Virus record (IMG/VR): IMGVR_UViG_3300006928_000075
Span: 1 to 24,777 of that record
Origin: a virus
Length of the DNA: 24,777 bases
Direction: 5' to 3' (one strand)
In this document: one piece after another, positions 132 to 16,407 of the stretch
Numbering within the stretch: the stretch's first letter is position 1
Layout: every line of letters begins with the position of its first letter
Translations under genes and position numbers: made by a program
The notes under the pieces: generated by a model
What the model was told of the DNA's origin: nothing
Database searches by the model: none
The model's input: the letters and a program-made list of their open reading frames with translations, nothing else

Positions 132-1664
132 ATGAAATACAGTCCACAAGAAGAAAAAGAACTAATGACCTCCATCTGGTCAATCAACATAAAAGATGAT
201 CCTCTAAACTTTGTTCGCTTTGTCTTCCCTTGGGGTCAAAAGGACACCCCCCTCGAGCACTTTGACGGGCCAAGGAAGTGGCAAGAAAAAATTTTGCGGG
301 ATATTGCAATACACATACAACGTAACAACTCTATTGATATGCCCGAAATGTTCCGCTTGGCGGTTGGATCTGGTCGTGGAATAGGTAAGTCTGCTTTAGT
401 TGCGTGGATTATATTGTGGATGTTATCTACACGACTTGGTTCAACTGTTATCGTAACTGCTAACACCGAGCAACAGCTACGCTCAAGAACATGGGCGGAA
501 CTCGGTAAATGGCTCACACTCTCTATACACTCTCATTGGTTTCAAAAAACAGCAACAACCATCAAGCCCGCAACCTGGTTTGAAGAAGCACTTATAAGAG
601 ACTTAAAAATAGACACAGGCTACTACTACGCACAAGCGCAACTCTGGTCAGAAGAAAACCCAGATGCTTTCGCTGGTATTCACTCCAGCTACGGTGTGTG
701 TTTAATTATGGATGAGGCTTCAGGTATACCCGCACCCATCTATTCTGTGTCAGAAGGTTTCTTCTCAGAACCTACCCCTAATCGTTTCTGGTTTACCTTC
801 TCCAACCCCAGAAGAAATTCAGGGCCTTTCTACGATAGCTTCCACTCCAAACGTGCCTTTTGGAAGTCGGAACAAATAGACTCTCGTGACGTAGAGGGAA
901 CAGACAAAGAACTATTCCAAAGAATGATAGAACAGTACGGAGAAGACTCTACTGTGTCTAGAGTAGAAGTCATGGGTCAGTTTCCAAAAGCAGACGACGA
1001 TACAGTTATACCTATGGATTTAATTAATTCTGCTATAGACAGGGAAGTTACATTGACTGCAAGCGAACCGATTGTCTGGGGATTAGACGTAGCTAGATTC
1101 GGTGGCGACAATTCTGCGCTTTGCATACGACAAGGAAATACAGTTTTAGAAATAGTTAGTTTTCAATCTATGGACTTGATGCAGTTATGCGGTGCAATAA
1201 AAAATCGTTATGACGACTCAACTGCGATAGAGCAACCACAAGAAATATTGGTTGACGTAATTGGTTTGGGTAGCGGAGTCGTAGATAGATTAGCAGAACA
1301 GAATTTACCTGTGCGTGGTGTGAATGTAGCCGAAGCACCGAGCACGAAAAAAAATTATTTAAACCTACGAGCAGAGCTTTGGTTTGCAATAAAGGATTGG
1401 TTGGCGCAGCGTGATTGCCGACTTCCTAATAATGACGAGCTTGCTTCGGAACTCGCTGCGCCTCAATACAAATATACATCATCTGGGAAAATTAAAATAG
1501 AAAGTAAAGACGAAATGCGTAAAAGAGGTATAAAATCTCCAGACAAGGCAGACGCATTAGCTCTGACCATGGCAAGTTCGGCTGCATCCTTTGGTGGCAG
1601 TCAAGCGTTTATGGGTTATAATTTCAAAAAACCCTTGAAGTCAAGAATATTTAGAGTGGGATAA
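132..1664 (+). CDS. terL: Terminase large subunit (DNA-packaging motor ATPase/nuclease)
   Basis: ATP-driven motor that docks on the portal, pumps phage DNA into the procapsid and cuts the concatemer. The 510-residue length is usual for the family. The ATPase half has a Walker A-type loop GRGIGKS (residues 81-87), a Walker B strand VCLIMDEA (187-194, with D192 and E193) and a likely coupling motif FSNP (221-224). The C-terminal RNase H-like nuclease half shows acidic residues in GLDVAR (D317), LVDVIG (D373) and the KADALAL region (D472). The N-terminal FVFPWG and FDGPRKWQ stretches are typical of this terminase branch. No Shine-Dalgarno site precedes the ATG; the next ATG (165) is possible but would drop 11 residues. 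The small terminase subunit is not in the window and may lie upstream. Confidence 0.95.
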   Translation: MKYSPQEEKELMTSIWSINIKDDPLNFVRFVFPWGQKDTPLEHFDGPRKWQEKILRDIAIHIQRNNSIDMPEMFRLAVGSGRGIGKSALVAWIILWMLSTRLGSTVIVTANTEQQLRSRTWAELGKWLTLSIHSHWFQKTATTIKPATWFEEALIRDLKIDTGYYYAQAQLWSEENPDAFAGIHSSYGVCLIMDEASGIPAPIYSVSEGFFSEPTPNRFWFTFSNPRRNSGPFYDSFHSKRAFWKSEQIDSRDVEGTDKELFQRMIEQYGEDSTVSRVEVMGQFPKADDDTVIPMDLINSAIDREVTLTASEPIVWGLDVARFGGDNSALCIRQGNTVLEIVSFQSMDLMQLCGAIKNRYDDSTAIEQPQEILVDVIGLGSGVVDRLAEQNLPVRGVNVAEAPSTKKNYLNLRAELWFAIKDWLAQRDCRLPNNDELASELAAPQYKYTSSGKIKIESKDEMRKRGIKSPDKADALALTMASSAASFGGSQAFMGYNFKKPLKSRIFRVG

Positions 1665-1667
1665 TTT

Positions 1668-3830
1668 ATGGCAAAGAAAAGCACAAAGCAGATCGAAGAA
1701 GAAATCGAAATGCAACTCAATGAAGATACGGACTTAATTAATCTATCTGGAGTTATCAAATCAGAGATGGATGATGCTCGTGATTTCATCTACCAAGTCG
1801 GAGAAGAAAGAGCAGAATCTACAGAATACTATCTTGGCAACGAGCCAGAATCGACAAGCACATTACAGTCTGAGTTTATCTCTACTGATGTTAGAGACAC
1901 CGTACTGTTTATGCTACCGTCTATCATGCGTACTTTCTTTGGTACTAAGAAGGTAGTTGAATTTATACCTAAAGGGCCTGAAGACATACAGCTTGCCGAA
2001 CAGCAAACAGATTATATTAACCACGTTATCCAACAAAAGAACAATGGCTTTAAAGTATTGTACGATGCGTTTAAAGATGCACTCGTTAGAAAGACAGGGT
2101 TTGTCAAAGTGTTTTGGGATGACTCGCTTGATGCAACTACGCACGAGTATTCCAACTTAGATCCACAGTCTTACCAAGCCTTAGTGCTTGACCCTGACGT
2201 AGAGATTATCGAAGAAGAGATAACAAAAGAAACGATTACAACACTTGACCCACTTACACAGGAAGAGGTTACACAAGAACTGCCTGTCAGTTACGACCTA
2301 ACTATTAGAAGAGTCAAAGAAAGAAACCAAGTGTGCATGGAGTCTGTACCACCAGAAGAAGTATTAATATCTAGACACGCTAAAGATTTAAACAGCGCAT
2401 CTTATGTTGCACACCGCATGGTTAAATCTGTATCTGATTTAGTTGCTATGGGTTACGACCCCGAAGAAATAGAAGAACACGCTGGCTATGGCGGTAGTGC
2501 AGTTGACCCAGAAGCTTACGAAGAAGTACAAGCGCGTAATCCTTTTGACAACATGGTATATCCCGACAGGAGCGATGCGGGCGGTAAAGACGTTTTATAT
2601 ATAGAACACTATTTATTCTATGACCTTGACGATGATGGTATAGATGAAAGAATTAGAGTATGCACTATTGGTGATGGTATTCACGTTCTAAATGTAGAAG
2701 CGTGGGATGATCTACCGATTGTTATGTTCTGCCCTGATCCTGAACCACATACAGCGATTGGTTCATGTCCAGCAGACTACTTAAAACCGATTCAAGCAGC
2801 GAAGTCTCAGATTATGAGAGACACGCTAGACTCACTAGGACATTCTATTTTCCCTCGTATGGCTGTCGTCGAGGGTCAGGTCAATATTGATGATGTATTG
2901 AATACTGATATTGGACAGCCGATTAGAGTGCGTGCTCCTGGTATGGTACAACCATTTAGCGTACCGTTTGTCGGCAAGGAAGCGTTTCCTGTACTGGGCT
3001 ATCTCGATGAGTCTAAAGAGAATCGTACAGGGGTGTCTAAAGCATCAGCTGGTCTGAACGCAGATGCTCTTCAATCAAGCACCAAGGCAGCGGTTTCCGC
3101 TACCATGTCGGGAGCACAAGGAAGAATAGAGCTAATTTGTAGGCATTTTGCCGAAGGTGGTATGAAAGATCTCTTTGGATTGGTCAACAATCTAGTTATC
3201 AAACATCAAAGTGCTCAAGATATGTTTAGATTGAACGGTAAATTTGTACCTGTTGACCCTAGATATTGGGACACAAACAAAGATATCATTGTAAATGTAG
3301 CGATTAGCAAGACTTCAGACGAAGAAAAGTTTGCTATATTGGCGCAATTATCTACAAAACAAGAGCAAATACTTGCTCAGTTAGGCCCTCAGAACCCTCT
3401 TGTGTCTTTACAGCAATATTCTAATACTTTGAGCAGAATGATAGAAATGGCTGGATTTAAAGACCCAGAATCGTTTATAAACACCGAAGTTCCGCCAATG
3501 CCACCCCCTTCACAAGAGCCACCGAAGCCAGATGCAGCTGAAATGTTAGCGCAAGCAGAGGCTATGAAAGCACAAGTAAGTGCTCAGAAGGCTATGATAG
3601 ATGCGGAAACAGATCGTATGAAGATTATTATGGATGACGATAGAAGTCGTGACATAGAAGAGGCACAAATACGATTAAAAGCAGCTGAGTTGTTGGCAAA
3701 ATATGGAGCACAAGTTAATATTGCAGAGATCAATTCCATCATGGAAAGAGACAGAGAATCGATCAGACAAAATGCAAAACAACAAGCTCAAGGATTATTT
3801 AGTAACAATGCGCCCCAACAAAATTTATGA
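1668..3830 (+). CDS. Portal protein, P22-like long type
   Basis: Dodecameric ring at the special capsid vertex through which DNA enters and leaves. At 720 residues it is close to the long P22 portal rather than the roughly 400-500 residue portals of many other phages. It begins three bases after the terminase stop, the classic terL-portal order. The N-terminal region (about 1-110) has a helical lead and the ELISTDVRD-like core segment seen in these portals. The last ~100 residues are Gln/Ala/Lys-rich and predicted helical (MLAQAEAMKAQ through the C-terminus), consistent with the extended helical barrel of P22-type portals. It overlaps the next gene by 23 bases. A P22-type barrel supports a podovirus-like virion. 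Assignment rests on length, position and sequence style, not on a database search. Confidence 0.9.
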   Translation: MAKKSTKQIEEEIEMQLNEDTDLINLSGVIKSEMDDARDFIYQVGEERAESTEYYLGNEPESTSTLQSEFISTDVRDTVLFMLPSIMRTFFGTKKVVEFIPKGPEDIQLAEQQTDYINHVIQQKNNGFKVLYDAFKDALVRKTGFVKVFWDDSLDATTHEYSNLDPQSYQALVLDPDVEIIEEEITKETITTLDPLTQEEVTQELPVSYDLTIRRVKERNQVCMESVPPEEVLISRHAKDLNSASYVAHRMVKSVSDLVAMGYDPEEIEEHAGYGGSAVDPEAYEEVQARNPFDNMVYPDRSDAGGKDVLYIEHYLFYDLDDDGIDERIRVCTIGDGIHVLNVEAWDDLPIVMFCPDPEPHTAIGSCPADYLKPIQAAKSQIMRDTLDSLGHSIFPRMAVVEGQVNIDDVLNTDIGQPIRVRAPGMVQPFSVPFVGKEAFPVLGYLDESKENRTGVSKASAGLNADALQSSTKAAVSATMSGAQGRIELICRHFAEGGMKDLFGLVNNLVIKHQSAQDMFRLNGKFVPVDPRYWDTNKDIIVNVAISKTSDEEKFAILAQLSTKQEQILAQLGPQNPLVSLQQYSNTLSRMIEMAGFKDPESFINTEVPPMPPPSQEPPKPDAAEMLAQAEAMKAQVSAQKAMIDAETDRMKIIMDDDRSRDIEEAQIRLKAAELLAKYGAQVNIAEINSIMERDRESIRQNAKQQAQGLFSNNAPQQNL

Positions 3831-3984
3831 TATTGAAGTCTTAGAAGGTGATATGGTTTACATAGGCAAAGAGGTATTTGCTAAAAGTAAACAACAAGCT
3901 TTTGAAATGATGATATTAATGTTTGGTGGTGAGATAAACGAAGATTCAGAAATCATTCTTTGTGAAGAAAAAACAATGCACTAA
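3808..3984 (+). CDS. Small acidic protein of unknown function, 58 aa
   Basis: Starts inside the portal gene (+1 frame) and ends in TAATG overlap with the next gene. I chose the ATG at 3808 (MRPNKIYDIEV) over an upstream in-frame ATG at 3703, which would lie deep inside the portal coding sequence. An AAGGA at 3790-3794 precedes 3808 at a slightly long spacing. A second in-frame ATG at 3853 has AGAAGG just before it and would give 43 residues. The protein reads as a small alpha/beta fold with a hydrophobic FEMMILMFGGEI centre and acidic C-terminus. I do not recognise a family. It opens the run of tiny genes that follows. Confidence 0.6.
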   Translation: MRPNKIYDIEVLEGDMVYIGKEVFAKSKQQAFEMMILMFGGEINEDSEIILCEEKTMH

Positions 3985-4268
3985 TGGCTAAAGCAATACG
4001 CAAGACAACAGGAAAGGGCGGTAATTACAGACCTACTAAGTCTGGTGCTGGCATGACTAAGAAAGGAGTCGCTGCCTACAGAAAAGCCAATCCTGGTTCT
4101 AAACTAAAGACTGCTGTAACAGGAAAAGTAAAACCTGGTAGCAAAGCAGCTAAGAGAAGAAAGTCTTATTGTGCTAGATCACTTGGACAACTAAAACGTA
4201 GTTCTGCGAAGACTAGAAATGATCCTAACTCTAGGATAAGACAAGCCCGCAGAAGGTGGAAGTGTTAA
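3984..4268 (+). CDS. Small basic phage protein with KPGSKAAKRRKSYCARS motif, 94 aa
   Basis: Lys/Arg/Gly/Ser-rich 94-residue protein. It has a TKSGAGMTKKGVAAYRK segment (about 18-34), a KPGSKAAKRRKSYCARS motif (about 50-66) and a basic RQARRRWKC tail. I recall this motif set from a family of short uncharacterised proteins in many tailed phages, possibly DUF6321; I could not check this. The charge suggests nucleic acid binding, which is inference. The two Cys residues (in YCARS and at the C-terminus) could pair or bind metal. Its start overlaps the previous stop (TAATG), so translation is probably coupled. Confidence 0.75.
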   Translation: MAKAIRKTTGKGGNYRPTKSGAGMTKKGVAAYRKANPGSKLKTAVTGKVKPGSKAAKRRKSYCARSLGQLKRSSAKTRNDPNSRIRQARRRWKC

Positions 4269-4291
4269 AAAAATCTAAGTATAATCTTTTT

Positions 4292-4405
4292 ATGGATATA
4301 TTAATCGCACTCGTAGTTTTAGCTGTAATAGCTGGCTACTACGTTAAAAAGAAAAAGCCTGAAATTTATAACAAAGTTAAACAATCATTAAAACTAAAAA
4401 AATAA
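4292..4405 (+). CDS. Single-pass membrane microprotein, 37 aa
   Basis: 37-residue ORF: an N-terminal hydrophobic segment MDILIALVVLAVIAGYYV followed at once by KKKKPE and a Lys-rich C-terminal tail. That is the pattern of a one-pass N-out/C-in membrane peptide. It fits between two neighbouring tiny genes with 1 base before the next ATG. There is no clear Shine-Dalgarno site, only an AT-rich leader with TATAAT at 4280-4285. It could be a lysis-related microprotein, given the holin-type genes about 650 bases downstream, but that is speculation. Confidence 0.55.
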   Translation: MDILIALVVLAVIAGYYVKKKKPEIYNKVKQSLKLKK

Positions 4406-4406
4406 A

Positions 4407-4556
4407 ATGCCAAAGAAAGGACTATACGCAAACATACACGCTAAACGTAAAAGAATAAAAGCAGGCTCTAAAGAAAAGATGAGGAAACCTGGTACAAAGG
4501 GTGCTCCTACCGCTAAAGCTTTTAGAAAAGCGAAAAAGACTGCGAAAAAGAAATAA
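4407..4556 (+). CDS. Conserved tiny Lys-rich phage protein (MPKKGLYANIHAKRKRIKAG type), 49 aa
   Basis: 49 residues, about half Lys/Arg. The pattern GLYANIHAKRKRIKAGS, then KMRKPGTKGAPTAKAF and a Lys tail, is one I recall from many phage genomes, always as an uncharacterised short ORF near structural genes. Conservation of the central KPG-KGAPTAKAF part argues for a real protein rather than low-complexity read-through. Nucleic acid or RNA binding is a fair guess from charge. The next gene's Shine-Dalgarno site (AAGGAG) overlaps this gene's stop codon. Confidence 0.8.
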   Translation: MPKKGLYANIHAKRKRIKAGSKEKMRKPGTKGAPTAKAFRKAKKTAKKK

Positions 4557-4565
4557 GGAGTAATT

Positions 4566-4655
4566 ATGCCAAAAGGCTTAGGAACATACGGAAGTAAAAA
4601 AGGTAGACCACCTAAAAGAAAAGTAAGAAAAACCGTATATAAAAAGAAAAAGTAA
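4566..4655 (+). CDS. Tiny basic protein, 29 aa
   Basis: 29-residue peptide beginning MPKGLGTYGSKKGRPPK and ending in KKKK. The start is well supported: AAGGAG at 4555-4560 with a 5-base spacer. The GTYGSKKGRPPK part looks like the short conserved peptides of phage late regions. GRPPK resembles an AT-hook core (GRP), so minor-groove DNA contact is possible but unproven. The stop overlaps the next start (TAATG). Confidence 0.65.
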   Translation: MPKGLGTYGSKKGRPPKRKVRKTVYKKKK

Positions 4656-4756
4656 TGCTTAAGAAAAAGGCAACGCAAGAGGATAAGCGTAAACAAACCG
4701 CTGCCTTTTGGAAGTTTATTTTGCAACAAAGAAAAGATAACAAGGAGAAACAATAA
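4655..4756 (+). CDS. Tiny charged helical protein, 33 aa
   Basis: 33 residues: basic KKK lead, then an amphipathic segment AAFWKFILQQRK and a charged tail. TAATG overlaps link it to both the gene before and the gene after. The next gene's Shine-Dalgarno site (AAGGAG at 4743-4748) lies inside its last codons, which supports the reading frame order. Family not recognised. Confidence 0.55.
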   Translation: MLKKKATQEDKRKQTAAFWKFILQQRKDNKEKQ

Positions 4757-4872
4757 TGCCTTTTAAAAAATACTCACCTAAACAAAAGAAATTAGCTAGA
4801 GTAGCTAAACCTCGTAATAAAATTACAGGCGCAGATTTTAAAAAACTAAAAAGTAAAAAGAAAAGAAAATGA
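4756..4872 (+). CDS. Tiny Lys-rich protein with PRNKITGADFKKL motif, 38 aa
   Basis: 38 residues: MPFKKYSPKQKKLARVAKP, then RNKITGADFKKLK and a basic tail. SPKQKKLA-VA-PRNKITGADF is a pattern I recall from short ORFs of other phages, with no function known to me. It has a strong Shine-Dalgarno site (AAGGAG, 4743-4748) and is coupled on both sides (TAATG upstream, ATGA downstream). High Lys content suggests nucleic acid binding, by inference only. Confidence 0.7.
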   Translation: MPFKKYSPKQKKLARVAKPRNKITGADFKKLKSKKKRK

Positions 4873-5015
4873 AGAAAAAAATCAAAGCACCTAGAGGTTA
4901 TCATTTTATGAAAAGTGGCAAAAGTTATAAATTGATGAAAAACAAAGGTAAGTTTGTTCCACACAAAGGCGCATCACAAACAGCAGAATTTGACGTTATA
5001 ACCAAACACAAATAA
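4869..5015 (+). CDS. Tiny conserved phage protein (APRGYHFMKSGKSYKLMK type), 48 aa
   Basis: 48 residues starting in ATGA overlap with the previous gene. The APRGYHFMKSGKSYKLMK core, then PHKGA and a short end in TKHK, matches a small family I recall from many tailed phages, still without function. Aromatic and Met positions suggest a small beta-hairpin rather than disordered sequence. It closes the run of mini-genes; 30 bases without a gene separate it from the lysis cassette. Confidence 0.75.
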   Translation: MKKKIKAPRGYHFMKSGKSYKLMKNKGKFVPHKGASQTAEFDVITKHK

Positions 5016-5045
5016 AACAACGTCTACCAAATCTAAAAGATAGAG

Positions 5046-5300
5046 ATGGAACAAGAAACAAAAGTAGAGATACATCAACATCAAAATAAAACTTGGTATA
5101 ACTTAGCTGAAGGTTTTGATAAATGGAGAGTGTTTCCTAGATTGTTAATCACTTTGTATGGATATGCTTTTTATAAAACTACTGAATGGTTTATGACTTT
5201 GCCAGATCCAACCAATGCTCAGTCAGCTTTTGTATCTGTCATTGTAGGTGCGGGAGCAGCTTGGTTTGGTTTATATGTTGGCGGAACACCTAGAAAATGA
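5046..5300 (+). CDS. Putative holin, two membrane segments, 84 aa
   Basis: Small inner-membrane protein with a charged N-terminus (YNLAEGFDKWRVFPR) and two hydrophobic segments: about residues 29-50 (VFPRLLITLYGYAFYK...) and 59-79 (AFVSVIVGAGAAWFGLYVG), ending in a short basic tail. Size and topology suit a holin that opens the membrane for endolysin. Position directly before a 3TM holin-like gene and an M15 peptidase supports a lysis role. The wording NLAEGFDKWRVFPR is familiar from other phage genomes. The stop is in ATGA overlap with the next gene. It could instead be a lysis regulator or partner holin. Confidence 0.7.
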   Translation: MEQETKVEIHQHQNKTWYNLAEGFDKWRVFPRLLITLYGYAFYKTTEWFMTLPDPTNAQSAFVSVIVGAGAAWFGLYVGGTPRK

Positions 5301-5677
5301 TAGATAAACTAATTGAGCCAGTAACACAAATACTAGACAAGTTTGTTGCCGACAAAGATCTAAAAGCAAAATTAGATCACGAAATAAAAACACAATTTCA
5401 CAAAATTGATCTTGCACAAATTGAAGTTAATAAAGTAGAAGCATCACATCGTTCTATTTTTGTAGCTGGTTGGAGGCCTTGTTGCGGATGGATATGTGCT
5501 ATTGCACTTGGCTATCATTTTGTTTTGCAACCAATTATTTTATTTGTTCTGTCTCTTAACAATCTTCAATATCAACTACCCGAATTTGATATGGGTGCAT
5601 TGTTGTATGTCTTAGGTGGTATGTTGGGTCTTGGTGGATTAAGGAGTTATGAAAAGTCAAAAGGTTTGACTAAGTGA
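5297..5677 (+). CDS. GTA-type 3TM holin-like protein, 126 aa
   Basis: The first 50 residues are a charged amphipathic helix. The FVAGWRPCCGWICAIALGYHF segment (about 55-75) and the hydrophobic run after it to about 87 look like two membrane segments, and GALLYVLGGMLGLGGL (100-115) like a third. The AGWRP-GW signature is that of the 3TM holin family known from gene transfer agents and many phages (Holin_3TM, PF11351 from memory). It overlaps both neighbours (ATGA, GTGA), so the holin-like pair and the peptidase are translated as a unit. Having two membrane proteins before the endolysin is compatible with a holin/antiholin or holin/pinholin pair. Confidence 0.8.
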   Translation: MIDKLIEPVTQILDKFVADKDLKAKLDHEIKTQFHKIDLAQIEVNKVEASHRSIFVAGWRPCCGWICAIALGYHFVLQPIILFVLSLNNLQYQLPEFDMGALLYVLGGMLGLGGLRSYEKSKGLTK

Positions 5678-6048
5678 GCCACTGGAAAAACTTTAAATTA
5701 GATGAGTTTAAATGTCAGCATTGTGGTGAAAATAACATTGAACATAAACTTGTAGATAAGCTACAATTACTTAGAGAACATTTAGGCTTTACATTTATTA
5801 TTTCTTCTGGTTATCGGTGTAAATATCATCCAGCAGAAAAAAACAAAAGTAAGCCAGGTACTCATAATTTAGGGATTGCAGCCGATATAGCCTGTAGTCA
5901 TAAAGAAGCATTACAAATAGTGTCCAAAGCACAAAGTTATGGATTTACAGGAATTGGAGTTAATCAAAAAGGAAATGGAAGATTTATACACCTCGACATT
6001 GCAAAAGATACGCACGAGCATCCAAGACCTCATATTTGGAGCTATTGA
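5674..6048 (+). CDS. Endolysin, M15-family peptidase (peptide-cleaving murein hydrolase)
   Basis: Zinc peptidase of the M15_3 type that cuts peptide stems or cross-links of peptidoglycan. The metal site is clear: SGYRC (45-49), then H64 and D71 in HNLGIAAD, and H106 in FIHLD. The N-terminal FKLDEFKCQHCG with two Cys (C14, C17) is usual in this family. Length 124 is that of a stand-alone catalytic domain; there is no cell-wall-binding domain and no signal peptide, so release through a holin is expected. The start is GTG at 5674, overlapping the previous stop as GTGA; there is no better ATG. Confidence 0.9.
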   Translation: MSHWKNFKLDEFKCQHCGENNIEHKLVDKLQLLREHLGFTFIISSGYRCKYHPAEKNKSKPGTHNLGIAADIACSHKEALQIVSKAQSYGFTGIGVNQKGNGRFIHLDIAKDTHEHPRPHIWSY

Positions 6049-6054
6049 TTTCTA

Positions 6055-6294
6055 ATGGAACTTTCATTTTATGTAGTTTGGAATATTTTTGTAACACTGG
6101 TTATAGCACCATTGTTTTATTCCATACGCAAAAATGAAAACGAAGCAAAAAGGATTGACATATTAGTGAATAAAACAAGAGAAGAAATAGCTAGAGACTA
6201 TGTTACTAGAAATGCTCACAATGTTGAATATTCAAGATTAATGGATAAAATAGATAAACTTGATGCTAAAATAGATAAACTAATCACTGATTAA
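6055..6294 (+). CDS. Membrane-anchored coiled-coil protein, possible inner spanin, 79 aa
   Basis: An N-terminal membrane segment (about 4-23, FYVVWNIFVTLVIAPLFYSI) is followed by a charged helical region with heptad-like spacing, ending KIDKLDAKIDKLITD. The N-anchor plus coiled coil and the place just after the endolysin fit an inner-membrane spanin subunit, which would need an outer-membrane lipoprotein partner. No lipobox partner gene is visible nested here or next to it, so the spanin reading is tentative. It might instead be a holin regulator. GGAG at 6038-6041 is a distant Shine-Dalgarno candidate. Confidence 0.6.
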   Translation: MELSFYVVWNIFVTLVIAPLFYSIRKNENEAKRIDILVNKTREEIARDYVTRNAHNVEYSRLMDKIDKLDAKIDKLITD

Positions 6295-6295
6295 T

Positions 6296-7300
6296 ATGGC
6301 AGAACCAACATACGATCCATACGCATATAGCGACATAGGCAGAAGAGCATTAGGCGGAGAATACATAGATGCTATGAATTTCTTTTGGTTTGATCCTGTA
6401 ACTGGAGAAGAAGGACAAACTACAGAAGGATGGAGTCGTGTACCTGATGCTGCAAAACCATATACTTATTTAGATCCAGGATCAAGAAACCAAGCTAGAA
6501 ATACTTTCTATGAAAGCGGTGCTGCTTTTGGCGGTGTTGGTGGAATGGGCGGAGGTATGGGTAGTGGCTTATTAAGCGGTCAAGCTTACGCACAACAAAT
6601 AGCGGGCGGTATGCCTTTTGAACAAGTAGTAGCACCTGGTATGAGTTTCTCTCCAGATCAACCTATGGGTTATCTTGCAGAAGGAGTTACACCTTTCCAA
6701 CCTAGAGCTTTTCCAATGACAGGAGAAGACTTAGGTTTACCAATGGGAGAAGGAACACCAATGCCAGCTGGAACTAGATTTGAAGGTGCACCAGTAAGGA
6801 TGCCAACACCATCAGTTATGGCAAGTCCATTGCCTTTGGATATAGATATAGATGAATTGTTAAAAGATATTGATGTAGAGCAAGCTATAGAAAACTTACC
6901 TACACCAGAACCACAACCAGTAGCAGCTCCAGTAGTTTCTACACCTATAATACCTCCTACATTGCCTGAGATCATTCCAGAAAGACAACCTATTATGCCT
7001 TCTATTCCTATGATACCTCCTGTAATAGAAGCTCCTACACCAATAATAGATGTGCCAATGAATCTAGGTTTTCCTATGATCCAAGACATGCCTTTAGCTC
7101 AAATACCTGAGATACCTTTTCAATTACCACAGATACCACAGATAAACGATATGTCGACATTACCTGTAGTCAATACTCCTGTAATGCCACAACCTATGGT
7201 TAATTTAGGAATGAGTCCTACTAACCCAGTTCTAAACATTGATAATATTGTTTCACCCATAAGACAGGGAAGCCCAAGAGCACTATTAGGAACACTCTAA
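6296..7300 (+). CDS. Pro/Met/Gly-rich protein of unknown function, 334 aa
   Basis: The first ~75 residues look folded, with aromatic YDPYAYSDIGRR and FFWFDPVTGEEG patches. Then a Gly-rich hinge (AFGGVGGMGGGMGSGLL, about 77-95) follows. From about 175 to the end it is dominated by Pro, Ile, Met and Val in PxIPPxxPEI-like runs with one acidic interruption (DIDIDELLKDID). This is low-complexity and probably extended. I do not recognise a family. It lies between lysis and head-assembly genes, so a minor head or virion role is a guess. Spacing of one base after the previous stop and TAATG overlap with the next gene support the coordinates. Confidence 0.75.
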   Translation: MAEPTYDPYAYSDIGRRALGGEYIDAMNFFWFDPVTGEEGQTTEGWSRVPDAAKPYTYLDPGSRNQARNTFYESGAAFGGVGGMGGGMGSGLLSGQAYAQQIAGGMPFEQVVAPGMSFSPDQPMGYLAEGVTPFQPRAFPMTGEDLGLPMGEGTPMPAGTRFEGAPVRMPTPSVMASPLPLDIDIDELLKDIDVEQAIENLPTPEPQPVAAPVVSTPIIPPTLPEIIPERQPIMPSIPMIPPVIEAPTPIIDVPMNLGFPMIQDMPLAQIPEIPFQLPQIPQINDMSTLPVVNTPVMPQPMVNLGMSPTNPVLNIDNIVSPIRQGSPRALLGTL

Positions 7301-7627: not shown

Positions 7628-8632
7628 ATGAGCAACAACGGAAAACCGACTGCTTTACACACAGATGGAGAATTAGCTACTTCCGCTTTTGAGAGTTTTT
7701 TAACTCCTCCAGAGGAAAAAGTTGTAGAAGCAGAAGAAACAGAAGTAGATGTTATCGAAGAAGAAGAGCTCCCTGAAGAAGCTGAACTTGAATTAGATGA
7801 AGCTGAAGACGAAGAAGACTTTGAATACGATGACGAAATTGATGACGAAGAACAATTAGAGGTTGAAGAAGAACAAGAGCAACCCACTTTATACACCATC
7901 CGAGTTGATGGCGAAGAAGTAGAGGTCACGCTTGAGGAACTCCAAAACGGATATTCACGTCAGCAAGATTACACTCGCAAAACTCAAGAGCTGTCTCAAC
8001 AAAGAAAAACTATTGAGCAACAGCAGAAAGAGTTAGCGGAAAGAGATGCTATTTATGCACAGCTGTTACCGAAGATGGAAGCCCAAATATCGGGCGAATT
8101 GGCAAACGAGCCAGATTGGACACAGTTGTATGAAGATGATCCCGTGGGTTATGTTCGTGAAAAGCAAATCTGGGATGATAGAAAAGAGAAACTAGCTGCT
8201 GCTCAAGCTGAACAACAAAGACTTCAACAAGAAGCATTTGATAAACAGCAACAGCAATATGCACAGATGGTGCAAGAAGGTCAGCAAAGACTCTTGGAGA
8301 TCATACCAGAATGGCAAAATCCTGAGACAGCGCAACAGGAAAAGCTAGCAATTCGTGAATATGGCATTAACGTCTTGGGGTATTCACCACAAGAGATGGA
8401 CTCTGTATACGACTACCGAGCATTACTTGGTTTAAGAAATGCGTGGCTTAACAGTAAAACTGTTGAGGCTGTAAAGAAAAAACCAACGCAGAAAGCGAAA
8501 GCTCGGGTTGCAAGACCTGGTACAACGAACCGACCAAAATCAGTAGCCCCTGTGAAAAAAGCAAAACAGGTTTTAGCAAAATCTGGCAAAGTCCAAGATG
8601 CTGCTAAAGTTTTTGAACAAATATTAAAGTAA
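7628..8632 (+). CDS. Capsid scaffolding protein
   Basis: Likely internal scaffold that guides capsid protein assembly and then leaves or is cleaved. Residues about 30-85 are extremely acidic (long Glu/Asp runs). A short folded patch (YTIRVDGEEVEVTLEELQNGY, about 88-108) follows, then a long Gln/Glu-rich coiled coil (about 110-220), and the C-terminus is strongly basic (KKKPTQKAKARVARP). An acidic start, coiled-coil middle and basic helical end that binds the coat are typical of scaffolds. It sits directly before the major capsid gene. The start is supported by AAGGAG at 7613-7618, 9 bases before the ATG. No protease motif is visible. Confidence 0.85.
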   Translation: MSNNGKPTALHTDGELATSAFESFLTPPEEKVVEAEETEVDVIEEEELPEEAELELDEAEDEEDFEYDDEIDDEEQLEVEEEQEQPTLYTIRVDGEEVEVTLEELQNGYSRQQDYTRKTQELSQQRKTIEQQQKELAERDAIYAQLLPKMEAQISGELANEPDWTQLYEDDPVGYVREKQIWDDRKEKLAAAQAEQQRLQQEAFDKQQQQYAQMVQEGQQRLLEIIPEWQNPETAQQEKLAIREYGINVLGYSPQEMDSVYDYRALLGLRNAWLNSKTVEAVKKKPTQKAKARVARPGTTNRPKSVAPVKKAKQVLAKSGKVQDAAKVFEQILK

Positions 8633-8648
8633 TTTAAAGGAATATATT

Positions 8649-9584
8649 ATGGCTAAAGTAACTAATGCTTTTGACACATATACGGCCACCGCTGATAGAG
8701 AAGATTTAAGTAATATCATTTACAACATCTCTCCAATGCAAACTCCGTTTATGTCCTCAATCGGAACAAGAAACGTAAAAAACGTAGTTTTTGATTGGCA
8801 AACTGAATCTCTACCAACACCTAGTGCTACTGGAGAATTAGAAGGGTTTGAACTTTCTAGAGCAGCATCAACTGCTACTACAAGGGCAAGCAATGTATGT
8901 ATGATCTCAAAAAGAGATGCAACTGTCACAGGCTCGCAAGAGGCTTCAGATGCAGCTGGTAAGAGATCAGAAATGGCACACCAGTTAGCTATTATGGCTA
9001 AAGCACTAAAAAGAGACATGGAAGAAGCTCTATGTAAAAAAGGTGCTAAAACAACTGGTAACGCTTCAACAGCTAGGGTAACTGGTGGTTTCGAATCTTG
9101 GATCACAACTAACGATTCAAGAGGAACTAACGGTGCTTCAACTGGTGGCGGAGCTGCTCCAACAGACGGAACTCAAAGAGCACTTACAGAAACACTTCTG
9201 AAAGACGTTCTTGAGCTTATGTTTGCTAGTGGTGCTGAACCAAATCTAGCTATAGCTGGCCCTCACAACAAGCAAGTGATTTCTGGTTTTACTGGAAGAT
9301 CACAAGCTAGGCAAATGATCGATGCTAACACTGTAGAAGCATCTGTATCTATCTACTCATCTGACTTTGGTGAACTGAAAATCGTTCCATCAAACAGATC
9401 AAGAGATAGATCTCTTCTATTAGTTGATCCTGAGTTTGCTAAAGTTTCTTACTTAAGAAACTTTGAGACAGTTGATATAGCAACTATCGGTGATGCTGAT
9501 ACTAAGATGATCGTAGTTGAGTACGGACTAGAAGTGAGCAATGAAGCTGCTCACGGTATAGTTGCCGACTTAAGCACATCTTAA
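8649..9584 (+). CDS. Major capsid protein, SU10/DUF5309 type
   Basis: Main shell protein of HK97 fold. The 311 residues begin NAFDTYTATADREDLSNIIY-like, then the NISPMQTPFMSSIG and FDWQTESLPTPS segments that mark the family known as DUF5309 or SU10 major capsid protein. The Thr/Ala-rich middle and the C-terminal LRNFETVDIATIGDADTKMIVVEYGLEVSNE strand-rich end also fit; key parts are at about 25-55 and 270-300. AAAGG about 7 bases before the ATG gives a good ribosome binding site. A strong terminator follows at once, which may set its high expression apart from the downstream tail genes. Confidence 0.92.
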   Translation: MAKVTNAFDTYTATADREDLSNIIYNISPMQTPFMSSIGTRNVKNVVFDWQTESLPTPSATGELEGFELSRAASTATTRASNVCMISKRDATVTGSQEASDAAGKRSEMAHQLAIMAKALKRDMEEALCKKGAKTTGNASTARVTGGFESWITTNDSRGTNGASTGGGAAPTDGTQRALTETLLKDVLELMFASGAEPNLAIAGPHNKQVISGFTGRSQARQMIDANTVEASVSIYSSDFGELKIVPSNRSRDRSLLLVDPEFAKVSYLRNFETVDIATIGDADTKMIVVEYGLEVSNEAAHGIVADLSTS

Positions 9585-11907: not shown

Positions 11908-14900
11908 ATGGCAGACACTACAACAACTAATCTGAGTTTAATTAAACCAGAACCTGATGTATCTTTAGATTGGGGTACAAAACTTAATACTGATTTAGAC
12001 AGTATTGATGCTATTTTTAGTAGTTCTGGTACACAGGTTAATCTTAATCCTAATCAAATAAACTTTGCAGATAATAAGAAGGCCATCTTTGGAGCAGGTT
12101 CTGACTTACAGATTTACCATGATGGTACTGCTAGCATTATTAAGGATGCAGGCGCAGGTAATCTACAACTTAATGCAAGTAATTTTGTTCTAAATAATTC
12201 AGGTGACACTCAGAATATGATTACAGGTGTTGATGGAGGTTTTGTAAGATTATTTCATGCAGGTTCAACAAAGCTAGAAACAACCGCATCAGGTATAGAC
12301 GTTACAGGTACAGCAGTAACAGATGGTCTTACAGTAGCTGGCACATCACAATTAACCAATACTTCTTCTATAGATACACTAACATTGATAGGTAATACTA
12401 GCTCTGTTGCAGGTGTAAAACTACAAGCTGAAGAAGTCCACGGTGCTATGTATGGAATTAATATTGGCAATAATTTTGGCGGCCTTGCTTTTCATACAAA
12501 TAATAATGGAACTGTAGCAGAAAGGCTCAGAATAGATAATGCAGGTTTGGTTGGCATAGGAACGACTTCGCCATACGGCAAACTAACAGTTCAAAGTGCA
12601 TCTAATGGTGATACCTATTTTACAGGTGGTACAGCCAATTCGAGATTACTACATATTTCTACTTCTACGCATAGCGGTTACGCAAATGCAGGTCATAATT
12701 TTGTAGTTGCTTCAGGAGTAGGAGCATTAATCTTTGGTAACGCTACAACAGCTAATCTTCTTACAGTTGAAACTGGTGGCATAGATGTTACAGGTACAGC
12801 TACAGTAGATGGTTTGACTTCTAGTGGTGATTTAGTTGTTGATGATGGAGCTAGATCACTAACGTATGATGTCTCGGCAGGAGAACTAAACCATGCAGGA
12901 GCTACATTCCACATAAATAAAAGCAATGGTGTAGATGTAGCCATAGGAAACGATGATCTCTATGTAGACATGAGTACTTCAAGAGTTGGTATCGGAACTA
13001 CTACGCCAACCTATTTGTTAAATGTTATAGCAGGGGCAGGGGCTCAAACTATATTTCAAGCAGGACAAAGTGGCATTTCAAACGGCTACACTGTCAATAG
13101 TGATGGAACTAATCTAACACATCAATGGTATAACGATGCTGGGGAAGCAGCCAGAATCAATAGCAATGGGCGGGTTGGCATAGGAACGACTACACCTTCA
13201 TCACTTTTAGAGGTATATCATGGTAATCAAGCCCTTGGATTTACATCAGGAATTCTTTCATCTGCGAATGTAAGCGATTATACCGCTGGCAGAGGTGCTG
13301 GTATGACCATGCAAAATGTTGATGTTAATGTCGCAGGTATGTATGGCATTAGAGAAACAAGTAGTTGGAGAGGAGCACTTACATTTTATACTCATACAGA
13401 CGCTAGTGGTAATACTTTTGGTACTACATTTACTGAGAAAATGAGAATTACCAGTGATGGAAAAGTTGGTATCGGAACTGATTCGCCATCAGCAACTTTA
13501 GACGTAAACGGAACTACAGAAACAAACGCACTTACTATTAATGGTTCGGCACTAAAATACAAAGCATTTGGATCTAACTCCATAATGTTTGGAGATAATG
13601 CTACAGGAACTATTGATGCAGCAGATCAAAATACTGGAGTAGGTGTAGATGTTTTTGCAGCTTTAACGACTGGTGATAATAATACTGCTGTAGGTTTTAA
13701 TTCTTTAGCATCCAATACCACAGGTGGTGCTAATTCTTCTTTTGGTACTTATTCATTAGATGCAAATACTACAGGTAGTGAAAATACAGCAATAGGTAAA
13801 TCTTCTTTAGGAGCAAATACTACAGGGAATAATAATACTTCTGTAGGTAGACACGCTTTATTTTCTAACACCACAGCCAGTGACAATACAGCAGTCGGTA
13901 AAGATGCTCTATATTCTAATACCACAGCAGGTAATAACGAAGCATTTGGTAAAACTGCTTTATATTCTAATACTACAGGTACTCAAAATAATGCTATGGG
14001 TTCTGGGGCTTTGTATGCCAACACTACTGGAAATTACAACACAGCTATTGGTGGTGGTGCTTTAGACGCTAATACAACTGCCAGTAGCAACGTAGCAATT
14101 GGCTATGCCTCACTTACAACAAACACTACAGGTGAAGCTAATACTGCTTTGGGTTCTTATAGTTTACTTTCTAATAGTACAGGAAACTATAATGTTGCTT
14201 TAGGCAACAATGCTTTACGAACAAACACGACTGCTTCAAGTAATACTGCAATCGGACAAGCAAGTTTGTTTTACACTTCAACTGGTGCAGAGAATGTTGG
14301 AGTCGGTAGAGATTCTTTACATTTTAACACTACTGGTGCAGAGAACGTAGCAGTTGGATTTAGTGCTTTAAAGGCAAACACCACAGGAACACAAAATGTT
14401 GCGGTAGGTGAAGGTGCTTTACAAAGTCACACTACAGGTAGCTACAACGTAGCACTAGGTAGAGCATCATTAAGTGCTAATACTACAGCGTCTGGTAATA
14501 CTGCTGTTGGTAATTATTCTTTAGGGGTAAATACTACAGGAACAAGAAACGTAGCGGTTGGTGCGGGTTCATTAGACGCCAACACAACAGCAAACGATAA
14601 TACTGCCTTGGGTTATGATGCTATGTCATCTAATAACACAGGCGCACAAAACACAGCGGTTGGTGCGTATGCGCTTGATGCTAATACGACAGGAGCTTTT
14701 AATGTTGCTGTTGGTAGAGCAGCATTAAGTTCTAATACTACAGCAGAACGCAATACTGCTGTTGGAATTGCTGCATTAGAATTAAACACGACAGGAACAC
14801 AAAACACAGCTGTAGGAGCTAACGCACTAGATTCTAATACCACAGCAGATGCTAATACAGCGGTTGGATATAACGCTTTAGCAGCAAACACTACAGGAAA

Positions 14901-16407
14901 CGATAATACTGCTGTAGGAAGAACTGCACTTGAAAACAATACAACTGGACAGTTCAATGTTTCAGTTGGTAAAGCTGCTTTAGCACAAAATACTACAGCA
15001 AGTAATAATACTGCTGTAGGTACTTTAGCTCTTAATTTAAATACTACAGGAGGTAGTAATACTGCTTTTGGTGCTTTTGCCTTAGATGCCAATACAACTG
15101 CTAACTATAACGCAGCTTTCGGTGATTATGCTCTAGGATCTAATACTACGGGAGGAGTAAATACAGGGATTGGTAGCAATGCCTTATCAGCAAACACAAC
15201 TGGCATTGCAAACACAGCAGTAGGAGCTGATTCTTTAGATGCCAATACAAATGGTGGTTATAATACAGCTATAGGTTATGTAGCTTTAGGGGCTAATACT
15301 ACAGGAAACAACAATACATCAATAGGTGCTTCTACTCTTATAGCAAACACTACAGGGGCTGATAACGTAGCAGTTGGTCAAGGTGCTTTACAAGATAATA
15401 CTACAGCTTCTTATAACACAGCCGTTGGTAGAGATGCTATGGCAAATAACACCACAGGAGAATCTAATACAGCTCTTGGTCACAATGTTTTAAATGATAA
15501 CACTACAGGTTCATACAACGTAGCTATTGGTTCTGGTTGTTTACAACTAAATACAACAGGTGCGAGAAACACAGCAGTAGGACAAAATGCTCTAGACACT
15601 AACACTACAGGTTCTAATAACACAGCGTTTGGCCTTAATGCTTTAGATGATAACACTTCAGGTTCTTTTAACTCTGCGTTAGGTAGAAGCTCTTTAGCTA
15701 ATAATACAACTGCAAACAACAATACAGCCGCTGGTTACTATGCTTTAGAAGTAAATACTACTGGTTCAGGCAATGCTGCGCTTGGTAGAGATGCCTTGTT
15801 AAATAACACTACAGGTACAGAGAACGTAGCTTTAGGATTTGATGCTGGGGGTGATGTAACAACAGGTAGTAACAATTTCTTTATTGGGAAAGGAGCGGGT
15901 ACTGCTACTGCACCAGGAGGAAGCCCAGGCGGTACGATTACCACTGGTAATAACGAAGGTGTAATTGGTAATGGTAGTCATTCTAAAATTAACGTACAAG
16001 TTTCTTTAACAGTAGCATCTGACGAAAGAGATAAAACAGACTTCCAACCTCTATCTGCTGGATTAAATTTTGTAAATGAATTAACGCCATACACTTATTA
16101 CTGGGATAAACGTGCTAAATACGTTGATTGGGATGCAAACCCAGATACAGATTTAAATACAATAGAACATGATGGAACTCATAAAGAGGACTGGATGGAC
16201 ATTGGATTTAAAGCACAAGACGTTATAGCTTTAGAAGAATCTATAGGTCATAATTTAGCAAATAAAACAAACCTTGTTTCTAATCAAACAGGGGATGGTA
16301 AACAATATCAGTTACAATATGAAAAGTTTGTACCGATATTGGTTAAAGCAATACAAGAACTTTCGGCAAAAGTCGAAGAATTAGAAAGTAAATTAAACGG
16401 AGAATAA
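11908..16407 (+). CDS. Giant tail fiber with 44 pentapeptide-like 17-residue repeats and S74 chaperone
   Basis: Probable receptor-binding fiber, 1499 residues. Residues 1-45 (TTTNLSLIKPEPDVSLDWGTKLNTDLDS) are the common virion anchor motif. Residues about 50-570 are mixed beta shaft with four VGIGTxxP units (GIGTTSP 216-222, GIGTTTP 361-367 and 424-430, GIGTDSP 521-527) and two IDVTGTA-xxDGL segments. Residues 575-1322 are 44 tandem 17-mers (NTAVGxxALxxNTTGxx). The C-terminal Peptidase_S74 intramolecular chaperone starts at S1371 (SDERDK); it normally trimerises the fiber and cuts itself off just before that Ser. A short coiled coil ends the protein. The repeats resemble YadA-head beta-roll repeats in style. 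The start directly follows the previous stop. Confidence 0.9.
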   Translation: MADTTTTNLSLIKPEPDVSLDWGTKLNTDLDSIDAIFSSSGTQVNLNPNQINFADNKKAIFGAGSDLQIYHDGTASIIKDAGAGNLQLNASNFVLNNSGDTQNMITGVDGGFVRLFHAGSTKLETTASGIDVTGTAVTDGLTVAGTSQLTNTSSIDTLTLIGNTSSVAGVKLQAEEVHGAMYGINIGNNFGGLAFHTNNNGTVAERLRIDNAGLVGIGTTSPYGKLTVQSASNGDTYFTGGTANSRLLHISTSTHSGYANAGHNFVVASGVGALIFGNATTANLLTVETGGIDVTGTATVDGLTSSGDLVVDDGARSLTYDVSAGELNHAGATFHINKSNGVDVAIGNDDLYVDMSTSRVGIGTTTPTYLLNVIAGAGAQTIFQAGQSGISNGYTVNSDGTNLTHQWYNDAGEAARINSNGRVGIGTTTPSSLLEVYHGNQALGFTSGILSSANVSDYTAGRGAGMTMQNVDVNVAGMYGIRETSSWRGALTFYTHTDASGNTFGTTFTEKMRITSDGKVGIGTDSPSATLDVNGTTETNALTINGSALKYKAFGSNSIMFGDNATGTIDAADQNTGVGVDVFAALTTGDNNTAVGFNSLASNTTGGANSSFGTYSLDANTTGSENTAIGKSSLGANTTGNNNTSVGRHALFSNTTASDNTAVGKDALYSNTTAGNNEAFGKTALYSNTTGTQNNAMGSGALYANTTGNYNTAIGGGALDANTTASSNVAIGYASLTTNTTGEANTALGSYSLLSNSTGNYNVALGNNALRTNTTASSNTAIGQASLFYTSTGAENVGVGRDSLHFNTTGAENVAVGFSALKANTTGTQNVAVGEGALQSHTTGSYNVALGRASLSANTTASGNTAVGNYSLGVNTTGTRNVAVGAGSLDANTTANDNTALGYDAMSSNNTGAQNTAVGAYALDANTTGAFNVAVGRAALSSNTTAERNTAVGIAALELNTTGTQNTAVGANALDSNTTADANTAVGYNALAANTTGNDNTAVGRTALENNTTGQFNVSVGKAALAQNTTASNNTAVGTLALNLNTTGGSNTAFGAFALDANTTANYNAAFGDYALGSNTTGGVNTGIGSNALSANTTGIANTAVGADSLDANTNGGYNTAIGYVALGANTTGNNNTSIGASTLIANTTGADNVAVGQGALQDNTTASYNTAVGRDAMANNTTGESNTALGHNVLNDNTTGSYNVAIGSGCLQLNTTGARNTAVGQNALDTNTTGSNNTAFGLNALDDNTSGSFNSALGRSSLANNTTANNNTAAGYYALEVNTTGSGNAALGRDALLNNTTGTENVALGFDAGGDVTTGSNNFFIGKGAGTATAPGGSPGGTITTGNNEGVIGNGSHSKINVQVSLTVASDERDKTDFQPLSAGLNFVNELTPYTYYWDKRAKYVDWDANPDTDLNTIEHDGTHKEDWMDIGFKAQDVIALEESIGHNLANKTNLVSNQTGDGKQYQLQYEKFVPILVKAIQELSAKVEELESKLNGE
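13630..15873 (+). repeat. 44 x 51-bp tandem coding repeat (17-residue unit, no indels)
   Basis: By reading the translation I count 44 consecutive units of exactly 17 residues: 44 x 51 = 2244 bases, with no insertion or deletion. The consensus is N-[TV]-A-[VIL]-G-x-x-[AS]-L-x-x-N-T-T-[GA]-x-x. A 45th degenerate unit (NFFIGKGAG...) follows. The first unit (NTGVGVDVFAALTTGDN) and the 44th are the least regular. Units differ widely at DNA level, so this is an old array and not a recent slippage product. Confidence 0.95.

Follow-up and report, generated by a model that had tools for sequence, protein, structure and literature searches.

A cassette of eight tiny conserved genes behind the portal gene of a marine phage, with candidates for basic proteins of the phage head

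Directly after the portal gene of a marine phage (IMG/VR record IMGVR_UViG_3300006928_000075, positions 1 to 24,777; this whole stretch of 24,777 nucleotides is called the window) lies a row of eight tiny open reading frames (ORFs). It raises the question if such short frames are genes at all and, if so, which function their mostly very basic products could have. The row consists of genuine, conserved genes. Its main feature, unseen in the original prediction, which was made from the letters of this DNA, is that equivalent basic sets are exchanged in an ordered and mutually exclusive manner. Whether the cassette encodes small, very basic nucleic-acid-binding proteins packed in the phage head is, in our judgement, evenly balanced. 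The eight ORFs (p1 to p8) are as follows:

3808..3984, + strand: p1, 58 aa, acidic (isoelectric point (pI) 4.5), first gene of the cassette, starting inside the 3' end of the portal gene
3984..4268, + strand: p2, 94 aa, DUF6321 protein, net charge about +28
4292..4405, + strand: p3, 37 aa, basic one-pass membrane peptide with a basic tail; an alternative GTG start at 4256 would give 49 aa
4407..4556, + strand: p4, 49 aa, 'GLYANIHAKRKRI' (GLYAN) module, net charge about +18
4566..4655, + strand: p5, 29 aa, 'GxGTYGSKxGRPPK' peptide, AGGAG site upstream
4655..4756, + strand: p6, 33 aa, basic, TAATG-coupled to p5
4756..4872, + strand: p7, 38 aa, 'KYSPKQKKLARVAKPRNKITGADFKKL' peptide, net charge about +15, AGGAG site upstream
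4869..5015, + strand: p8, 48 aa, 'APRGYHFMKSGKSYKLMK...KGAS' peptide, ATGA-coupled to p7

All eight frames of the original prediction were recovered, with the coordinates, lengths and couplings that it gave (TAATG overlaps at 3984, 4655 and 4756; an ATGA overlap at 4869). Six products are strongly basic, with a pI of 10.3-12.0 and a lysine plus arginine content of 29-45%, as had been claimed; the one-pass membrane peptide was confirmed as well, and the 58-mer is acidic. The good ribosome binding sites that had been noticed correspond to clear AGGAG-type sites ahead of 4566 and 4756. An Rfam scan of positions 3000-6500 matched no RNA family.

The frames might be spurious ORFs in AT-rich DNA: they are short, and some were missed by annotators (p5 in P-SCSP1u, p8 in CRP-901). 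However, codon-level substitution speaks against this. It was assessed for six families (p1, p2, p4, p5, p7 and p8) with homologues sharing at least 60% amino-acid identity. In this order, the synonymous values (pS) are 0.60, 0.73, 0.82, 0.49, 0.65 and 0.64, and the nonsynonymous values (pN) are 0.18, 0.09, 0.14, 0.25, 0.12 and 0.18; omega is about 0.18 for p1, 0.04 for p2, 0.09 for p7 and 0.14 for p8. Purifying selection acts on all six families examined. The other two ORFs have homologues at E<1e-3, 8 for p3 and 10 for p6 (best 9.4e-13), so that homologues exist for all eight, and strand, frame and order are kept in hundreds of contigs. Two observations that had been named beforehand as fatal to the original prediction, frames unconserved in relatives and random codon statistics, are thus both contradicted. 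Spurious frames were already refuted by the substitution test, and we dismiss them with near certainty. At the residue level, the core of p4 is nearly invariant in 123 of 160 matches. The DUF6321 core RRKS[YF]CAR...W-C is found in p2, with S61, A64, R65 and W92 invariant and C63 and C94 nearly so (26-29 sequences).

The arrangement of the genes was followed in 62 contigs with a related portal and a downstream stretch of 1 kb or more; because these portal relatives are mutually related, the slot counts that follow are not independent events. Module matches in them lie on the coding strand only. p1 directly follows the portal gene in all 62, and p1 is followed in 61 of the 62 by a gene of the DUF6321 superfamily, which is either DUF6321 proper or the YWSC branch (with a 'RYWSCKKW' end). 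Profile comparison with hhalign gave 98.2% for DUF6321 against YWSC and at most 2.1% for all other pairs among 12 families; the two alignments are not fully independent, because some seed sequences match both profiles. The third slot is occupied by a 'GLYANIHAKR' gene (23 contigs), by a DUF5824 gene pair (15) or by a DUF5872 gene pair (13). These three sets are non-homologous, basic and never found together (zero overlap in 0 of 100,000 permutations). In Pfam, DUF5824 and DUF5872 are single domains; here each is divided between two adjacent genes, and the pair is always complete (contigs L085-L164, slot 3); the joined neighbouring genes match most of the respective profile (8.1e-16 and 2.1e-15). 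A Pfam search found neither domain in any ORF of the cassette of the window; relatives carry them in the slot of p4. The later slots follow in the fixed order p5, KFSYT, p7 and p8 (p5 present in 9, p7 in 22 and p8 in 17 of the relatives). Co-occurrence in the same order, which had been proposed as a check, thus holds with a single reversal in 839 comparisons.

The cassette can be interrupted or expanded. In a close relative (L167), a 3.3-kb insert lies between GLYAN and p5. It is curli-secretion-like (L167:1815-4763) and codes for CsgF (1.5e-18), CsgG (6.1e-53), a 236-aa repeat-like secreted protein and a FecR-domain protein; such an insert is also present downstream of GLYAN in L085 and L160. 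L116 has a second p1-like acidic ORF of 58 aa inside the cassette, about 1506 bases past the portal gene, which suggests paralogues of p1.

The modules are not confined to portal relatives. That three motifs recur across phages had been suspected, and each was found widely: GLYAN occurs in 84 records of isolates and at no fewer than 574 places in viral contigs, GYHFMK (p8) at 278 such places and PRNKITGADF at 55 retrieved loci. DUF6321 occurs in 545 phage records, mostly of cyanophages and pelagiphages. The modules do form a set. A DUF6321 or YWSC gene lies within 1.5 kb on the same strand in 58 of 80 contigs selected for GLYAN, and never on the opposite strand; of the 80 contigs selected for DUF6321, 48 have DUF5872N and 44 have the T4-type set. 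The claim that this set is undescribed stands only in part: p2 and p4 belong to families that are already catalogued (DUF6321 and phrog_16028), but both are of no assigned function.

In T7-like cyanophages, pelagiphages and T4-like cyanophages, the modules cluster in head-gene regions. P-SCSP1u has p5, DUF6321 and GLYAN between the major capsid protein (MCP) gene and the first tail gene (gp11-type). Eistla has GLYAN and DUF6321 between scaffold and MCP, and P-HM2 has DUF6321 between TerS and TerL. HTVC027P codes in a row for DUF5872N, DUF5872C, a 36-aa basic ORF and DUF6321, while CRP-5 has YWSC, GLYAN and a weak p8-like ORF. The p8 copy in CRP-901 lacks an annotation. In P-SCSP1u, for which a structure has been solved, the p5 homologue between the major capsid gene and DUF6321 (L084:4637-4732, 2.1e-12) is unannotated. 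Transcriptomes have been published for two pelagiphage carriers, HTVC022P and HTVC027P.

Evidence from virions comes from three cyanophages. In the whole genome of S-CREM2, modules occur only in gp137 (DUF6321) and gp160 (DUF5872N), and both proteins are on the list of 52 virion proteins. In S-SCSM1, ORF29 is the only module carrier of the genome. It combines three modules, and the record marks it as a virion protein, a label that mostly but not strictly means detection: we count 48 labels of this kind, against 45 detections given in the paper. Together with S-SZBM1, three of four module ORFs were detected (chance p=0.024).

Fusions and leaders point to the interior of the prohead. The capsid protease gp125 of phage ICP1 (Peptidase_S78_2, 6.6e-10), encoded between portal and MCP, carries a C-terminal YWSC module (6.9e-21). 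A cytidylyltransferase of HTVC008M carries a C-terminal DUF5824, with YWSC encoded next door; cytidylyltransferase/NMNAT proteins are present in the virion proteomes of S-CREM2, S-SZBM1 and S-SCSM1. Short T4-type DUF6321 proteins start with a leader like MKTYQEFIAEA of T4 IPII/IPIII in 11 of 19 cases, compared to 50 of 387 in a background scored at the first Met only (p=1e-5, which is somewhat optimistic because this looser pattern was written after the N-termini had been seen); a strict T4-leader pattern matched 1 of 67. Some of these short proteins read leader-GLYAN-DUF6321 (capsid-targeting-sequence (CTS) fusions). Several other proteins on the S-CREM2 virion list (gp6, gp12, gp14, gp154 and gp15; L333-L336) have N-termini like T4 capsid-targeting sequences, and they include a Cas9-like nuclease, a kinase, a SAM hydrolase and a cytidylyltransferase.

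The neighbourhood of the cassette in the window includes these genes:

132..1664, + strand: terminase large subunit (phrog_2, 4.7e-47)
1668..3830, + strand: portal protein (phrog_1216, 1.4e-150), matching the solved portals 9nwm and 7sxk
5297..5677, + strand: holin (Pfam GTA_holin_3TM, 1e-15; phrog_3427, 4.2e-28)
5674..6048, + strand: M15-type endolysin (phrog_894 endolysin, 1.6e-34)
7628..8632, + strand: head scaffolding protein (phrog_3927, 4.2e-58) with a very acidic N-terminus
8649..9584, + strand: major capsid protein (phrog_1328, 5.1e-87)

The cassette is flanked by the portal gene upstream and by genes for a membrane protein, the holin and the M15 endolysin downstream. Since the scaffold and major capsid genes follow downstream of the lysis genes, the cassette lies inside the head-gene cluster. 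Further downstream (11908-16407), an ORF of 1499 aa consists of many near-identical 'NTTGxxNTAVGxxAL' repeats and probably codes for a fibre-type protein.

Packaged, nucleic-acid-binding basic proteins are suggested by real and constrained genes, ordered exclusive slots and head-cluster positions in unrelated phages, and also by virion mass spectrometry, fusions to proteins of the prohead interior and the precedent of a chlorella virus (see below). Judged by homology, a head location of the modules appears fairly well supported; that the cassette peptides bind nucleic acid is what we infer. Virion proteins that bind nucleic acid had been among the functions guessed in the original prediction. 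This was a good guess, and its virion part gains support from the proteomes and from the fusions of larger homologues. From their position, the genes would be expressed late, along with the terminase, portal, scaffold and capsid genes with which they are clustered. The peptides may then enter the assembling prohead, perhaps attracted by the acidic scaffold. They would remain with the DNA, neutralise or organise it, and might be injected with it; the bound nucleic acid would most simply be the packaged genome. Several non-homologous basic sets could do this job (GLYAN, the two-gene DUF5824 and the two-gene DUF5872), each beside a protein of the DUF6321 superfamily, which would account for phages having one set and not another in the slot. 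In contigs binned with bacteria of very different kinds (bins that may include misplaced phage contigs), the GLYAN core is almost unchanged, which would best fit a universal partner, for example DNA or RNA. The set is accompanied by the acidic p1 and the membrane peptide p3, whose roles this model leaves unexplained.

Several points weigh against packaged basic proteins. S-SZBM1_192 is the sole DUF6321 carrier of its phage and, of the DUF6321 proteins, has the most T4-like leader; it is missing from the mass-spectrometry list of that phage. Genes of the head region are over-represented in virion protein lists anyway. All mass-spectrometry detections concern larger fused T4-like proteins, and the peptides may derive from non-module parts. 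A scan of the first 100 kb of the 107.5 kb of P-SS2, which has a good virion proteome, found no modules, yet this is no test of the idea. The very high conservation of GLYAN and DUF6321 exceeds what charge neutralisation alone would be expected to require. Moreover, according to PMC3281028, no large contribution of basic proteins to the neutralisation of phage DNA is known.

The same evidence can be read in other ways. The modules may be tags for prohead targeting or core assembly, which bind the acidic scaffold or the inner capsid and steer themselves or a cargo, with nucleic-acid binding being secondary. The head-cluster position would fit, as would the scaffold of the window (net charge about -42 over the first 110 residues) and the fusions to the ICP1 capsid protease and to cytidylyltransferases of the type found in virions. 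However, the short T4-like forms already bear a separate T4-type targeting peptide ahead of the modules, so that a second tag would be redundant, and GLYAN hardly changes while capsid and scaffold types vary among its carriers. We thus regard tags as unlikely. The modules are strongly conserved in phages binned with widely differing bacteria, which would also suit a universal target inside the host, and internal proteins of the T4 type can be active there once they have been injected. The peptides would then serve host takeover: injected along with the DNA or produced late, they would bind ribosomes, rRNA, RNA polymerase or the host nucleoid. This is quite improbable in our view: it does not predict placement in a late head cluster or fusion to a capsid protease, and no similarity to ribosomal or regulatory proteins was found in Pfam, PHROGs and NCBIfam at E<=1.

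Alternatively, the products might be late accessory factors that are used only in the cell (for packaging, lysis timing or RNA handling) and are not packaged. Portal and lysis genes adjoin the cassette, p3 is a membrane peptide, and the missing S-SZBM1_192 would be as expected; module-bearing proteins are, however, found in S-CREM2 virions and among the labelled virion proteins of S-SCSM1, which makes such factors a very improbable explanation.

To our knowledge, tailed phages are generally held to make little use of basic proteins on their DNA. If the modules are packaged nucleic-acid-binding proteins, phage heads hold more than DNA neutralised by cations, and a connection with the basic virion proteins of giant algal viruses can be tested. 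It is tempting to speculate that the packaged DNA of many aquatic tailed phages carries a protamine- or chromatin-like set of tiny proteins, that these come from a pool of exchangeable modules partly common to giant algal viruses, and that non-homologous equivalent sets are swapped as a unit; this generalisation is rather doubtful at present. The exclusive slots offer a natural test of functional replacement. With carriers in culture, among them P-SCSP1u, Eistla, HTVC100P and HTVC027P, the packaging question can be answered directly. By the literature searched, both the exchange pattern and the joining of scattered families into one set appear new. DUF6321 is not named in that literature, and the only paper found on DUF5872 or DUF5824 concerns an algal giant virus; the portions seen of papers on P-SCSP1u, on P-SSP7 and on cyanopodovirus core genes contain no discussion of the module genes.

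How the cassette relates to known families and systems differs from gene to gene. p1 has no Pfam or PHROG match, a PDB sequence search with p2 and p4 gave no match, and an NCBIfam search gave nothing relevant. p2 is a member of Pfam DUF6321 (PF19846; PHROGs 4689, 727 and 10346), with 2.9e-12 and 47.5 bits (cut-off 28.5) over positions 6-72 of 72. In the window it is a stand-alone gene in a fixed slot after portal and p1, a slot that is elsewhere filled by the YWSC-type branch. p4 matches PHROG 16028 end to end (residues 1-49 on positions 1-49 of 50, 2.7e-25). It is here one of three exclusive alternatives; elsewhere it forms the middle of a fusion, after a T4-type leader and before DUF6321. 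DUF5824 and DUF5872 are matched by the alternative sets of relatives when gene pairs are joined, while the cassette of the window has neither. DUF5872 and DUF5754 are annotated in the giant algal virus CpV-BQ1 (PMC12085832); a link between the YWSC branch and DUF5754 is below the cut-off (best 0.0042). The small internal virion proteins IPII/IPIII of T4 are similar in the leader found on short DUF6321 proteins of T4-like cyanophages; the likeness seen is that of the leader, and no ORF of the window cassette starts with a leader like MKTYQEFIAEA. With protamine-like viral DNA-condensing proteins, the basic peptides of the window share small size (29-94 aa), Lys/Arg richness and a pI of 10.3-12.0. 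Virions of chlorella virus PBCV-1 hold basic DNA-bound proteins (A278L, A282L and others; PMC3281028). Although these are large kinase-containing proteins of a eukaryotic virus, they are strongly basic, packaged and DNA-associated, and they serve as a working analogue in function.

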